From assembly GCF_003144245.1 (NCBI RefSeq), contig NW_020289980.1:620001-684000 (forward strand): DNA of 64,000 bases, read 5' to 3'. A program made the translations under genes and the position numbers. Each line of letters starts with the position of its first letter. Position 1 is the stretch's first letter. Source of the DNA: Jaminaea rosea. Lineage: Eukaryota > Basidiomycota > Exobasidiomycetes > Microstromatales. Of this stretch, positions 24,704 through 30,872 are shown one piece after another. The notes under the pieces are model-generated. The model did no database searches, was not told the origin of the DNA, and saw only the letters and a list, made by a program, of their open reading frames with translations.

Positions 24704-26365
24704 TCATCCATCAAACTCCTCGTCGAGAGAATCAATCGAGCCTTGCCTCGAGATGACGCGACGCGATTTGTTGCTGGCGTTGCCATGGCGAGAAGCGCTC
24801 TCATCTTCTTGCTCTTCACCATTCTCGACACGGCTACGACTGCGACTGCGGCTGCGACTTTGGCTCCGCTGACGACGGCTCGCGCTCGGTGCTCTGCTCT
24901 CGTCATCACTGTCTGGCGTCTGTTTCTGCTTGCGCTTGCGCCTGCCGCTGGCCACTAGGCCTTCGCCTTCGTCGCTTCTGTCTGCCGTCTCGTCGTCCTC
25001 GTTCTCATCGCCTGAATCAGACTCGGCGTAGTATGTCGACGGGAACGTGGAGTCCTCATCCAGTGGGGCGATCTGAGAGAAGCGCGGAGCGATGTCAGCA
25101 CGAACGCATCTTCGTCCTCCTCTCATTCTGCCAGTGCTCACCAAGAAGTCAAGGAAGCCATGCGATGCTTCCCCTGCCATCCCTCCTGCGCCGTTCCTGC
25201 CTGCCCTTCTCTGTTGCCTATTCGCACCAGCATCCTCAGCGCCCCCCGTCCCCTTGGGCATCATCAATTGCACACTCAACAAGCCCCTCTTCCTCGCCAC
25301 CCTCAAGCTACACCTCACGCTAGCCTGTAGCCCCTTGACCAAGTGGTACACGTGCGCCCAGCGATACCAGTGACTTGTGTGACGTTCGCATGTGAACTTC
25401 TCCAGCACGCTCCCAGTCGCGGAGGTGGTGCTTGCAGTGTTGTACGGGAACTCGACGTCTGAAGATCCGCCATTGGGACCTCCATCCCAAGTGAGTTTGA
25501 ACATTGCTTGGCCGGGGGGCAAGGAAGGGGCGGAGGACGCAGAAGAGGCGTTGGTGCGGGCGGATGAGGTGGGCTGCGATGCGCGCACACCGACTCGACT
25601 TTTTGACGCCGCTGATCTGTCTCCTACTGCGCCCGCTGATGGCTCGTAGCTATTCGTAAAAAGGAGCTGCACCTTCTCGCACGCCTTGACGTCTATCCCC
25701 TGCATGGCGTCGGCCAGGTGCTCGCTACTCATGATAGCCTGAGCTTGTGTCTCGTCGTGGTGGTACTCGAAGCCGAGTGGGATCGCCGACTCGAAGGTGG
25801 AGAGCTCACAGCGTGAAGTTGCGTTGGCCTCGGGGCTGAGAAGGAGGACCAGTGGAACGCCGGGCCCTCGCCATTGTAGGCGGAGGGAGACGGCCGAGGG
25901 GGCGCCGGGCAGGCCACCAAGACGCTGAGCAGCTTCGTCGCGGAGTGGGTGAAGACCATTGGTCGAAACTCCGGCTGTAGCTGCAGGCGGTCTGCCTGAA
26001 CCATGCGTGGACCCCGTGGCCACGCCGCTGAAGATCGTCAAGCATTCGAGGAGGGTGAGGAGACTGATGTCAAAGTCGATGGATGCTTCGTGCCCTTCCT
26101 CTTCTACTTCGTCGTCCTCCGCACTGTCTTGCGCTGACTCGGGCGGATTGAAGACAAAGGATTTGAATAGCCCCTCGGACACGTAAGCAACTGCCTGAAG
26201 AGAGCGTGCGAGCTCAGTCGTGACACGAATACCGGCATTGCTGATGGAGAAGTTGGCGACCGCCGCAAAGGAGATGGGACGCAGCAGCGAGATGAGAGCG
26301 CGTACGTCGCCCAGCTCTGCGCGCAAGACGTCAGGACGGCGTTGGGCTGACGCTGCCGTTGGCAT
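24704..26365 (-). CDS. RAD1: Rad1/Rec1 subunit of the 9-1-1 checkpoint clamp
   Basis: Two exons, 26365-25142 and 25072-24704, give 530 aa. The 69-nt intron is in frame, so an unspliced frame also reads through. The core starts LRAELGDVRALISLLRPISF and continues with FSISNAGIRVTTE, LARSLQAVAYVSEGLFKSF and FDISLLTLLECLTIFSG, the sliding-clamp fold of Rad1 (Rec1 in Ustilago maydis). With Rad9 and Hus1 it forms the clamp loaded at damaged DNA to activate the checkpoint kinase. Yeast and animal Rad1 are shorter. Here the C-terminus adds an acidic block (DSGDENEDDETADRSDEGE), a basic RRKRKQKQ and an alternating SR stretch SRSRSRSRSR. An extended tail is also what I recall for the Ustilago protein. 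The start is the first ATG directly before the clamp fold. Confidence 0.85.
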   Translation of the reverse strand: MPTAASAQRRPDVLRAELGDVRALISLLRPISFAAVANFSISNAGIRVTTELARSLQAVAYVSEGLFKSFVFNPPESAQDSAEDDEVEEEGHEASIDFDISLLTLLECLTIFSGVATGSTHGSGRPPAATAGVSTNGLHPLRDEAAQRLGGLPGAPSAVSLRLQWRGPGVPLVLLLSPEANATSRCELSTFESAIPLGFEYHHDETQAQAIMSSEHLADAMQGIDVKACEKVQLLFTNSYEPSAGAVGDRSAASKSRVGVRASQPTSSARTNASSASSAPSLPPGQAMFKLTWDGGPNGGSSDVEFPYNTASTTSATGSVLEKFTCERHTSHWYRWAHVYHLVKGLQASVRCSLRVARKRGLLSVQLMMPKGTGGAEDAGANRQQRRAGRNGAGGMAGEASHGFLDFLVSTGRMRGGRRCVRADIAPRFSQIAPLDEDSTFPSTYYAESDSGDENEDDETADRSDEGEGLVASGRRKRKQKQTPDSDDESRAPSASRRQRSQSRSRSRSRSRVENGEEQEDESASRHGNASNKSRRVISRQGSIDSLDEEFDG

Positions 26366-26627
26366 GGCTAGCCGCGGTGCAGGATCGAGAAGTGGACTGC
26401 TGAATCCGTAAGGAAAGAAGGCAAACCGGAGGAAACGCGGACCGAGCACTTTGTGGCCCGAGCGAAGTACGCGACCCTACTTCCGTCATCGCGTGGCTGG
26501 CCGATGGGTCTGCCTCGAGAAAATTGGCTCGAGGCGGGGCGAAGCGGAGGAGCTGCGAAATGCGAGCGACGAGCAACCAGCCAACCAACTTTTGCTTCGA
26601 ATCTTGATCATCAATTGGCAAACCACC
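26366..26627. promoter_or_regulatory. Short divergent promoter, Rad1 and Cox10
   Basis: Only 262 bases separate the two start codons, so the transcripts must share control sequence. No clear box was identified. Confidence 0.45.
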
Positions 26628-29123
26628 ATGGCCTCGAGCGCGGCGATGAACGTCGCAAAGGCGTCTACGCCCTCAGCAGCCAGAGTCGCCACGGTGGCAA
26701 AGCCATGGTCGGTCACAAGCGGCGTCTACAGCCACCCGACCCTCTCGCCTACCTTCTTCGACACAGCTGCGCTTGCTTCGTCATCGAGGAGCAGGCTGCC
26801 TGGCCCTCAAGTCGCTACCTCTTCGCCCGCAAGCTACGACCGCTTCACTCCCTCATACCCATTGCGATCATCACAACCGTCTTCCTCCTCACCGTCACCC
26901 CATGGCAGCAACTCGATCTCGGACCATGAATTCAACGTCCGCCTCTCCCGAGCGGTCTCCCTCCTCCGAGCAACGCTGAGCGACTTCATGCGCATCGGTT
27001 TGGTAGACTACGACACATCACACGTCTCCTCGTCTTCTTCATCCTCCGGTCTCGGCATCCCTGCACTCGACCGTCTAGGTCTAGGCGCGATCCTCGAGGC
27101 TTTCGGAGCTCGCTCATCTGCGAAAGCCAAGGCGAGGTCAGAACTGCCAACGCAGCATGGCGCGGACGATGCAGACTGTCCTGTTTATCACCCGAATATC
27201 GTCTTCAAATTCAGGCCGCCCTCGGCATCACTGCCCAACGATAGCGGTAGTGCGGACGCGGGGCTTGTCACCTTTTCCGGCCGGGCCATGTACTTTGGCT
27301 CAGCTCACGTCTTGCGGATGGCACTGAGCGCCCTCTTCTCGCAAACGAGCATCAATCTCGAGCGGGCTCACCTGAACAAGCCGGGAGACGGCTGCACGGC
27401 TGGCAGGGAGGACGCATCGCTCGTGCTGCGCATGACGTTTAACGGCGTAGTGCGAGTTACGCAGCAGGTGCACGAGTACACCGTAGTCTTCAAGTATCGC
27501 TTCGACCCAGAGACGGGCATGATCGTGCAGCACACCGTCGACAGGATTGAGCCTGCGCCGGGCAAGAAGATCTATGCAGGGCTAGCAGCAGCATTTGCGA
27601 GGTTGGCGGGATTGCAGCCGGGAGTAGCGGAGGGAGTGAGAAATCCGGCGCCGTACTGTGTGGGAAGGGTGGGCGTGAGGGCGAGCACAGCGGCACCTGC
27701 TTTTGCGCTGCTGCCGAGGGCGAGCGCAGCATCATCCAGGCCGATCTCTCATGCCGCTTTCATCGAAAGGCAGAGAAGACGGCGTGGGTATGCAACGCAA
27801 TCGAGGCGGAGCGACGCACCAGCGCACACGCCTGCCGCCAAGGGGCAGCATCGAGACGCTGCGGCTGCGACGACGGCTGCTGCTCCCAGTGAGTCCACTC
27901 AGCCGTCGTCCTCCTTCTTCTCGACGCCGACTGGTGCGAATGACATGCCTGGCCCCTCGCTGTCCTCCTTTCTCTGGCCTTGGGGCGGTGCAAAGGCATT
28001 GGAGTCCTCGCTGTCGTCGCGGCAACAGCGCTGGGCCCCTTCATCAGACGACCCAACACAGGTCGCCTACTCGCCCTCAGGCCCTTGGATGCACGATCGC
28101 CTGCCCTCCAGTCCCACCTCTCTCGCAACATATCGCCCGGCCCCTTCGCCGAGCCTGACCCGCATCATTGCCGGCCTCTCCAAGGCTCGTCTCACCTTTC
28201 TCGTCACTCTATCTGGCATGGCAGGGTACGCTCTCTGCCCCGCCACGCTAGCTGCCGCGACCACGAGCGGCGTAGGATCAGGGGTCACCACACTGCTCCT
28301 CCTCACAGCGGGCACGGCTCTCTGCTCCGCTTCAGCCAACGCGATCAATCAGTTGCGCGAGGTACCCTACGATGCGCAGATGCAGCGCACGCGCGGTCGC
28401 CTCTTACCGTCACGAAGCGTCACTCCTCTCCTGGCGGCCAGCTTCGCCACATCAAGCGCAGTGGGAGGCGTGGCGACCCTCTCCCTCCTCTCTCCCACGA
28501 CTGCCGCCCTCGGTGCAGCGAACATTGTCCTCTACTCCTTCATCTACACACCCATGAAGCGCACCAGCATCTTCAACACTTGGCTAGGCGCCGTAGTTGG
28601 GGCTTTACCCCCACTGATGGGCTGGTCAGCCTGCACTGGTGGGCAACTCTTCGACGTCTTCGGCGCAGACGCTCCGGCATGGGTGCTCGCTGTCGTCCTG
28701 TATTGTTGGCAATTCCCGCACTTCAATGCACTCGCGCACAACTTGGCGCCAGAGTATGCGAGGGGAGGGTACAGGATGATGAGCGTTCTCAACCCTGCGC
28801 TGAACAGGAGAGTGGCATTGCGTCATTCGATTGCCCTGCTCCCGATCTGCGGGCTCGCCCTGCCGCTGAGCGGGGCCGTCTACCCCTTGGCGTACGCCGT
28901 TTTGAGCCTGCCGCCTAACCTGGCCTTTCTGGCAGCTACGTGGCGCTTCTGGAGTAAAGGGGACGAGGGGAGTGCGAGGCGCTGTTTTTGGGTCAGTCTT
29001 GTGCATCTTCCCGCGGTCATGATCTTGGCGATGGGTTGCAAGAGGGGGTTGTGGGATTGGGTGTGGGGGGAAGAGCAGCGAGAGGAGGGAGAACAGGCGG
29101 GGGATGGGCGGGGAAAGGAGTAA
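26628..29123 (+). CDS. COX10: Cox10 (protoheme IX farnesyltransferase) with extra N-terminal NTF2-like domain
   Basis: Single uninterrupted frame of 831 aa. The C-terminal third is a UbiA prenyltransferase: LSKARLTFLVTLSGMAGYAL (about 517), the first Asp motif region NQLREVPYDAQMQRTRGRLL (about 570-590), YTPMKRTSIFNTWLGAVVGA, and WQFPHFNALAHNLAPEYARG. Cox10 makes heme O from protoheme and farnesyl-PP in the inner mitochondrial membrane for cytochrome oxidase. The first 380 residues are not part of Cox10. After a presequence-like start (MASSAAMNVAKASTPSAARV) residues about 105-330 resemble an NTF2-like/DUF2358 fold: VYHPNIVFKFRPP, ALFSQTSINLERAHL, YTVVFKYRFDPETGMIV. At about 370-390, just before the Cox10 part, PISHAAFIERQRRRRGYATQ has the look of a second mitochondrial presequence with cleavage site. 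The start is the first ATG, context ACCATGG. Confidence 0.88.
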   Translation: MASSAAMNVAKASTPSAARVATVAKPWSVTSGVYSHPTLSPTFFDTAALASSSRSRLPGPQVATSSPASYDRFTPSYPLRSSQPSSSSPSPHGSNSISDHEFNVRLSRAVSLLRATLSDFMRIGLVDYDTSHVSSSSSSSGLGIPALDRLGLGAILEAFGARSSAKAKARSELPTQHGADDADCPVYHPNIVFKFRPPSASLPNDSGSADAGLVTFSGRAMYFGSAHVLRMALSALFSQTSINLERAHLNKPGDGCTAGREDASLVLRMTFNGVVRVTQQVHEYTVVFKYRFDPETGMIVQHTVDRIEPAPGKKIYAGLAAAFARLAGLQPGVAEGVRNPAPYCVGRVGVRASTAAPAFALLPRASAASSRPISHAAFIERQRRRRGYATQSRRSDAPAHTPAAKGQHRDAAAATTAAAPSESTQPSSSFFSTPTGANDMPGPSLSSFLWPWGGAKALESSLSSRQQRWAPSSDDPTQVAYSPSGPWMHDRLPSSPTSLATYRPAPSPSLTRIIAGLSKARLTFLVTLSGMAGYALCPATLAAATTSGVGSGVTTLLLLTAGTALCSASANAINQLREVPYDAQMQRTRGRLLPSRSVTPLLAASFATSSAVGGVATLSLLSPTTAALGAANIVLYSFIYTPMKRTSIFNTWLGAVVGALPPLMGWSACTGGQLFDVFGADAPAWVLAVVLYCWQFPHFNALAHNLAPEYARGGYRMMSVLNPALNRRVALRHSIALLPICGLALPLSGAVYPLAYAVLSLPPNLAFLAATWRFWSKGDEGSARRCFWVSLVHLPAVMILAMGCKRGLWDWVWGEEQREEGEQAGDGRGKE

Positions 29124-29429: not shown

Positions 29430-30496
29430 TTACTGCGGGGTGCGGGGAGTCAGCGCTTGGCCTTTCTTCCTGCAAGGACAACAACGCCGAGCTTACCTTG
29501 CTCATCATCATGTTCACGAACTCCTCTGCGAGCGCGGGGCGAGGGCCAGGGAGGGTCAAGGGTCAGTATCGCTGGAAGGTATCTTCAGGCTCCGCCTTGC
29601 CGCTTTGCACCCACGGTAGTTGATCTGCCCGTCCCCATCGACATCTGCCTCTCGGATCATCTCCTCGACCTCTTGGTCTGAGAGTTTCTCGCCCAAGTTT
29701 GTCATCCTGTGGTGTCGTGCGGGCCGCGATTGGCTGTCAGTTCCTTCGCGTCTTCTCCACTTCATGCTGCGAGTGGCCATGCCTAGTCGGCCACGTCCAC
29801 GCGCTCGCCCACGCCCACGCACACATGACGAAGCTCAGCGGCTGAGATGAATCCGTTGCCATCCTTGTCGAAGACCTTGAATGCCTCCTTGATCTCCTCT
29901 TCGCTGTCGACGTCGCGGAGCTTGCGGGCCATGAGTCCGATGAACTGGTGGCGCGGTGTGGCACAGAGCGTTGATGTCAGTCTAGTCCTGCACTCGTGGT
30001 ATCGCTCGGCCGCACGAACCTCTGCAAAGTCGACGCTTCCGTTCCCATCGGCGTCAACCTCGTTGACCATGTCCTGAAGCTCAGCCTCGGTGGGATTCTG
30101 GCCCAAGGAGCGCATGACGGTGCCGAGCTCCTTGACTGTGATGCTTCCATCGCCGTCCTTGTCGAAGAGGGAGAAGGCCTCCTTGAACTCTGTGAGCGCA
30201 GCGTGGGGACAGGGGTTGGAGAGGTGGAGTTGGTCAGATGATGTGCATATATGCGGGTGCGATTGCCAAGAGGGACGAGCGGTACTCACCAGCGATTTGC
30301 TCTGTGCGAAGAGCATGGTGAGCGAGGGAGGAAGAGAAGTAACGTGAGCACATCATGCCGCGGAGATCGTCGTGCTGGATATGCTGGACACTGCAGGTCG
30401 ATGCTCACCCTCAGTCTGCGAAGGAGCGCAATCGTTGATCAGCGATCAGTCTATGCCTATGCTGGATGTCTGCTCGCTCACCAGTTGGTCAGCCAT
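29430..30496 (-). CDS. CMD1: Calmodulin, with two micro-exons
   Basis: Eight exons: 30496-30482 (15 nt), 30415-30409 (7 nt), 30301-30290 (12 nt), 30189-30020, 29944-29823, 29706-29615, 29525-29497, and a last one starting with the stop TAA at 29432-29430. They give exactly 149 aa, the canonical calmodulin length. The first residues [20 protein letters not shown] are assembled from four exons. Four EF-hand loops are intact: [36 protein letters not shown] and [12 protein letters not shown]. The protein ends MMMSK. Calmodulin is the cytosolic Ca2+ sensor for kinases, calcineurin and myosins. Junctions all use GT-AG; donors GTTCGT, GTGCGT and GTGGGT are non-consensus but force the right frame. 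Confidence 0.95.
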
Positions 30497-30872
30497 GATA
30501 TATCGTTGTTCGTGCGGTGGTAGTCGTGAGTAGGAAGAAAGCGCTTGATACGATGCAATGGAAAGCGAAGTGTTGAGTTGTGCCTCTCTCTCGCTGGGAT
30601 CGACGCCGCCGCCGCCGTCTTGTCGTGATTGTGCGGCAGTGCCCTTCGTTGCTGCCACGCGGAGGTGTTGCTCGCCCGCCCGCCCGCCTGCCACGCTGCA
30701 GGCCACAGCGCCGCCCCTGCGCCAGACGCCCAATTGGCACTTTGGCCCGCTCGCTCGTCGGAGTCGAGTTGGACGGGAGTGAACGACGAGTCGAAAAGTT
30801 AGCAGATGCGATGCGTTCAGTCCAATCATCAGCCGCCGTCAGAGGCCGCATACACTCAGCGTTACCACGATC
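30497..30872. promoter_or_regulatory. Divergent promoter, calmodulin and Sen34
   Basis: About 375 bases between divergent starts. A GC-rich stretch with repeated CGCC units lies near 30675-30700. No defined site is recognised. Confidence 0.4.

Follow-up and report, generated by a model that had tools for sequence, protein, structure and literature searches.

A single open reading frame (ORF) of 831 codons, followed by the stop codon TAA, occupies positions 26628-29123 on the plus strand of the 64,000-nucleotide stretch of the Jaminaea rosea genome analysed here (contig NW_020289980.1, positions 620,001 to 684,000; hereafter the window). Its C-terminal half encodes the heme O synthase Cox10, and the whole frame may be read as a fused DUF2358-like/Cox10 precursor. 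Two modules lie in one frame, each preceded by a presequence-like stretch, and the identity of the first module is uncertain. A preliminary description of this DNA had reported the uninterrupted frame, the Cox10 part, a presequence-like N-terminus and an RRRRGYATQ sequence between the two halves, all of which were recovered; the NTF2/DUF2358 domain that it placed in the first half was not.

The frame begins with an ATG in a strong context (accaccATGG), 5' of which it stays open back to 26412 with no earlier in-frame ATG. Chance does not explain the frame; the ORF was resampled 4000 times at first order without once keeping all 831 codons open, and the linker between residues 337 and 515, taken by itself, remained open in 196 of 4000. 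Codon scores were trained on 16 other long ORFs of the window, which were picked by length and not curated as genes and which comprise 9,730 residues (the control ORFs below); the six-frame set of the window holds 625 ORFs and 75,753 residues. These scores favour the frame in most 40-codon windows on both sides of the junction between the modules, and become slightly negative in the final 40-codon windows, from residue 761 onward. The first 44 residues (26628-26759, plus strand) contain three lysines or arginines and no acidic residue, in keeping with the presequence-like N-terminus described earlier.

The Cox10 domain spans residues 516-802 (28173-29033, plus strand) and rests on three comparisons. 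It scores 225.8 bits against the heme o synthase model TIGR01473, above the curated cut-off of 210.3; residues 536-790 match the UbiA family PF01040 in Pfam (E 5.2e-50); and, in an alignment with CtaB from eight cyanobacterial genomes, the protein agrees at 55 of the 136 invariant columns. The agreeing positions include N574, D582, R587-T588-R589, R591, K644, R645, P697 and H698, and the loops of the prenyltransferase keep conserved polar residues. Conserved CtaB aspartates are replaced by E578 and P580 in the loop NQLREVPYDAQM, which we take to be the eukaryotic form. We read the Cox10 part as an intact enzyme. A low-complexity linker precedes the domain (residues 391-515; 27798-28172, plus strand); it presumably forms the N-terminus of mature Cox10 and includes two possible internal starts, M440 and M488. 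In viral contigs, a search sensitive to close relatives only found none of this Cox10.

Identity of the first half

A possible NTF2-like or DUF2358-like domain extends over approximately residues 100-345 (26925-27662, plus strand), where the resemblance is suggestive only and a low-complexity insert at about 123-180 would interrupt the fold. The preliminary description had called this domain at about residues 105-330, a call that profile searches failed to reproduce. A Pfam scan of residues 90-351, with hits allowed to E 10, found no family, PF10184 (DUF2358) included, which counts against a DUF2358-like precursor half. Pfam over the protein, and NCBIfam with the whole protein as query, reported nothing beyond the Cox10 part. 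We also made a DUF2358 profile from cyanobacteria, in which 18 of 20 genomes gave 29 PF10184 matches, 24 of them aligned; three sequences with no phmmer match at E 1e-3 (L137, L138 and L147) and two fragments (L148 and L149) were left out. With E values to 100 allowed, this 24-sequence profile did not list the Cox10-fusion ORF when run against the 625 ORFs of the window.

Weaker profile comparisons gave mixed results. With the untrimmed domain, the hhalign score against the cyanobacterial DUF2358 profile was 14.5, where 60 shuffles averaged 11.9 and reached 17.7, and with residues 181-345 only, the score was equalled by 13 of 100 shuffles for the cyanobacterial profile and by 45 of 100 for a profile that combined it with an approximate animal DUF2358 sequence; both outcomes speak against the DUF2358 call. 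When the low-complexity insert was left out, 2 of 100 shuffles equalled the score for the cyanobacterial profile and 1 of 100 that for the combined one, and against that animal protein alone 2 of 100 shuffles were as good with either construct. The probability assigned by hhalign itself to these comparisons was 3.0% at best. The animal sequence, of 315 amino acids, matches PF10184 at 5.2e-32, a match that secures its family but not its individual letters. BLASTP aligned the first half to it at E 0.003 across 33 columns, and when gaps were made cheap, 2 of 1000 shuffles equalled the local alignment. With the same sequence as query, phmmer gave the ORF a domain score of 0.0 bits and ranked six other ORFs above it, and a combined DUF2358 hidden Markov model did not place the ORF within its first six.

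Single-sequence AlphaFold modelling gave a mean confidence (pLDDT) of 44.9 for residues 94-351, which is low; for residues 180-347 it gave a pLDDT of 60.5 and a pTM of 0.60, still of low confidence, with a helix, four strands and a helix. Foldseek returned no match at E <= 0.001 for either model. Among the matches listed for residues 180-347, 32 of 50 rows (19 of 29 entries) were NTF2-like as judged by their names, including LinA, ketosteroid isomerase, SnoaL-type isomerases and NTF2, none of them significant; 12 of the other 18 rows were BPIFA1/SPLUNC1, and TM-scores among the listed matches were 0.37 at most. In sequence searches of the PDB, the first domain found nothing below E 1.1, the whole protein gave two matches to a G protein-coupled receptor (E 0.29 and 0.51), and the cyanobacterial DUF2358 profile had a designed NTF2 as its best match (E 0.33). 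A Tim44/Mba1-type NTF2-like domain, considered as an alternative identity, had no Pfam match, and a search of prokaryote contigs sensitive to close relatives only found none of the first domain.

DUF2358/C6orf136 is the likeliest identity of the first half, and we regard it as probable. Like C6orf136 and its mouse counterpart RIK, which are mitochondrial DUF2358 proteins (PMC11617004), the first half shows a similar order of motifs when set against the approximate animal sequence, the shared motifs including G-I-x2-H-x2-D and, near the C-terminus, P-x-K-K. It differs from them in that the animal protein is encoded by a separate gene, whereas the domain in the window fails the Pfam model and has long inserts.

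The junction between the two halves

The region between the modules resembles a presequence in its charge. Residues 336-379 carry five lysines or arginines and no acidic residue, and no 45-mer of the protein exceeds the net charge (+9) of those starting at residues 350-351. Stretches of 35 or more residues that lack acidic residues and hold at least six lysines or arginines occur 13 times in the 16 control ORFs, and the motif R-x-[YFL]-[AST]-[ST], found once in the fusion protein, occurs five times in the 9,730 control residues. Because the control ORFs show similar stretches and motifs and the amphipathic moment at the junction is not higher than elsewhere in the protein, an acid-free, charged junction is by itself a weak sign.

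A stronger pointer to an internal site for the mitochondrial processing peptidase (MPP) than charge alone is the decapeptide RQRRRRGYAT at residues 381-390 (27768-27797, plus strand), which overlaps RRRRGYATQ at residues 383-391. MPP is predicted to cut between G387 and Y388, where the preliminary description had suspected a cut, after which Icp55 would later remove the tyrosine. The pattern R-x3-R-R-x-[FY]-x-T has its single match in the six-frame set (625 ORFs, 75,753 residues) at this site and none in the 9,730 residues of the control ORFs; at the level of sequence only, the junction thus holds an internal MPP recognition sequence. The decapeptide follows the pattern of RGGGRRAFHT, an internal site to which the Neurospora Su9 presequence was shortened in a 2023 study and which yeast MPP cuts completely in E. 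coli (PMC10450427). As described there, a double copy of the site was used inside polyproteins in yeast mitochondria, where the double site worked best, replacement of Arg -2 and Arg -3 by Ala gave a non-cleavable variant, and an 11-residue peptide with YSS, the ending native to Su9, was cleaved less efficiently than one with FHT or FST (PMC10450427).

Several observations weigh against an MPP-cut tandem precursor. The pattern was formulated after the junction site was known and is therefore post hoc, and two looser MPP patterns have 4 and 9 matches in the 625 ORFs (0 in the controls). The ending YAT resembles the less well cut YSS of Su9, and the junction has a single site, where the double one was best in yeast. 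At 0.40, the best amphipathic moment in the junction falls short of the values for the first domain (0.46) and Cox10 (0.57). The junction also coincides with a marked dip in coding score: residues 325-394 (27600-27809, plus strand) are the most negative segment within residues 1-800, with a score of -13.9, compared with -12.1 for the lowest segment in any of the 16 control ORFs, the latter scored with a model that those ORFs helped train. With leave-one-out training, 80-codon windows as low make up 0.1% of 856 control windows and come from 1 of the 16 ORFs. Finally, two candidate in-frame introns lie inside the dip and share the acceptor at 27773, namely 27636-27773 (138 nt) and 27675-27773 (99 nt), both on the plus strand.

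The position of the dip is where one would expect the end of the first protein and the beginning of a Cox10 presequence if each stood alone; the N-terminal presequence has no comparable dip. Either an intron or recently noncoding DNA would give a low coding score such as that at residues 325-394, and the dip would likewise agree with a recent capture of intergenic DNA. The alternative that survives best, which we consider unlikely but worth serious attention, is that an alternative transcript start or splice (27636/27675-27773, or the internal start M440) gives Cox10 alone, with the long frame being an isoform or a read-through of two genes. The weak coding signal agrees with a Cox10-alone transcript, and splicing is made plausible by the GTGAG donors at 27636 and 27675, which keep the frame with acceptor 27773 (GTGAG occurs at 0.58 per kb in the controls), and by heavy splicing in this organism, with seven introns in the neighbouring calmodulin gene. 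Those seven introns supplied the splice rules, which recovered the complete calmodulin frame.

By these rules, however, the candidate introns are no denser than in the control ORFs, with three candidate acceptors in the 2.5-kb fusion ORF vs 1.23 per kb in the 16 controls, where 18 of 36 acceptors also have a frame-keeping candidate. The branch-like CTCAT of the candidates is absent from the branch sites of the seven calmodulin introns, the sole training set, and over its 46 codons alone the longer candidate does not stand out, since 4.3% of 1808 control windows score as low, or 10.0% when synonymous choice only is considered. Excision of either candidate would still leave a fused frame. Thus the in-frame candidates occur at background rate, and they are kept as a rival because of the dip at residues 325-394. 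Two further intron-like stretches in the ORF, at 27250-27406 and 28226-28335, would break the frame and are taken as chance occurrences.

Proposed processing and role of the two proteins

We lean towards a tandem precursor from which MPP cleavage yields Cox10 and a matrix protein of DUF2358-like type. One mRNA would be translated into an 831-residue precursor, which the N-terminal presequence would carry into the mitochondrion; MPP would remove this presequence and then make a second cut within RQRRRRGYAT (387/388). The products would be a soluble NTF2-like matrix protein, probably of the DUF2358/C6orf136 type, and Cox10, which would insert in the inner membrane, both arising simultaneously and in a 1:1 ratio. 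It is from the sequence that we infer the import, the cleavage, and the identity and role of the first domain.

In a less favoured arrangement, which we judge quite improbable, the chain would stay uncut and the first domain would remain tethered to Cox10, on its matrix side, as an integral accessory domain; the junction, however, is both the only place in the window ORFs that matches the MPP decapeptide pattern and the most positively charged part of the protein. An assembly error, or a lineage-specific accident without consequence, is very improbable in view of the 831 open codons, the apparently intact Cox10 and the in-frame codon scores on both sides of the junction.

Tandem mitochondrial precursors are a known kind. 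Among those in fungi, MPP cleavage has been shown for Arg5,6, which has an N-terminal and an internal MPP site, and internal MPP sites are predicted for the composite precursors Atp25, Etp1 and Rsm22-Cox11 (PMC8847149). Like Saccharomyces Arg5,6, the Jaminaea frame would yield two mitochondrial proteins per precursor by means of an N-terminal and an internal MPP site. Arg5,6 differs in containing two enzymes of one pathway, with cleavage established by experiment, whereas the frame in the window has an uncharacterised first partner and a predicted cut. Etp1 and Rsm22-Cox11 of Schizosaccharomyces pombe are likewise composite precursors in mitochondria for which internal MPP sites are predicted, and unlike the frame described here they join Cox15 and Cox11, not Cox10, to other partners. 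Etp1 combines Cox15 with ferredoxin, and hence also contains a heme-pathway cytochrome oxidase assembly protein. Engineered MPP-cut polyproteins that use the S10 peptide RGGGRRAFHT share the R-x3-R-R-x-[F/Y]-x-T decapeptide between two proteins, but are artificial and carry double copies in yeast. Among the literature matches listed, a scope that leaves most subscription journals outside, no report pairs a DUF2358-like protein with Cox10. Of the interpretation offered in the preliminary description, the fusion at the DNA level stands, and the tandem-precursor idea gains from the MPP-like decapeptide and the fungal precedents; the DUF2358 assignment is likely in our judgement rather than confirmed.

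By a Rosetta-stone argument, which indicates association only, the first product would be a factor for cytochrome oxidase biogenesis. In the simplest case it would act in heme O synthesis, or on the stability or oligomer state of Cox10; a role in cytochrome oxidase biogenesis or heme supply is thus proposed by association only. The mouse protein RIK belongs to DUF2358, is listed as mitochondrial and has no recognised function; mice without RIK are reported to die shortly after postnatal day 24 and to have lower mitochondrial transcripts in the brain (PMC11617004). If the reading as a tandem precursor is true, the natural 1:1 fusion would be a direct and testable link between a DUF2358-like protein and Cox10, and would tie an unknown protein to cytochrome oxidase assembly through Cox10. 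The catalytic site of Cox10 is predicted on the matrix face, and nothing is known of how heme b is delivered there, according to a review (PMC7140478). There is a slim prospect that Cox10 has a dedicated partner in the matrix in this first module, which might, for example, carry or gate heme b or heme o in an NTF2-type pocket; were it so, the fusion would reveal the function of the whole DUF2358/C6orf136 family.

Neighbouring genes and cyanobacterial DUF2358 loci

The fusion ORF is flanked by two genes on the minus strand. An ORF for a Rad1/Rec1/Rad17 checkpoint clamp protein (24704-26476; Pfam E 1.4e-44) is divergent from it. The calmodulin gene lies at 29430-30500 of the window; it has seven introns, micro-exons (7 and 12 nt) close to its start, and a final exon that opens with the stop codon.

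A location of cyanobacterial DUF2358 genes beside ctaB was considered and found no support, as 20 neighbourhoods of 16.5 kb, around 20 of the 29 PF10184 matches, contained no Cox10-like tblastn match. Two of the 20 cyanobacterial genomes (G012 and G018, recognised via L049 and L030) have no PF10184 match; one is uoEpiScrs1, and the other is a metagenome assembly that may be incomplete. We take uoEpiScrs1 to be a non-photosynthetic diatom endosymbiont, and if it is, its lack of PF10184 would fit a role of DUF2358 in photosynthesis in cyanobacteria. In 11 of 13 neighbourhoods of the short-type DUF2358 gene (L157-L169), the gene stands directly 5' of an ArsA-like ATPase ORF on the same strand. 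The gap between the two, measured on stop-to-stop ORFs, is -73 to 143 nt in 10 of the 11 and 935 nt in one, and L160, the only one of the 11 ArsA-like ORFs scanned for domains, has an ArsA_ATPase domain with an HSP20-like tail. The arrangement looks like an operon of DUF2358 with an ArsA/GET3-type ATPase.
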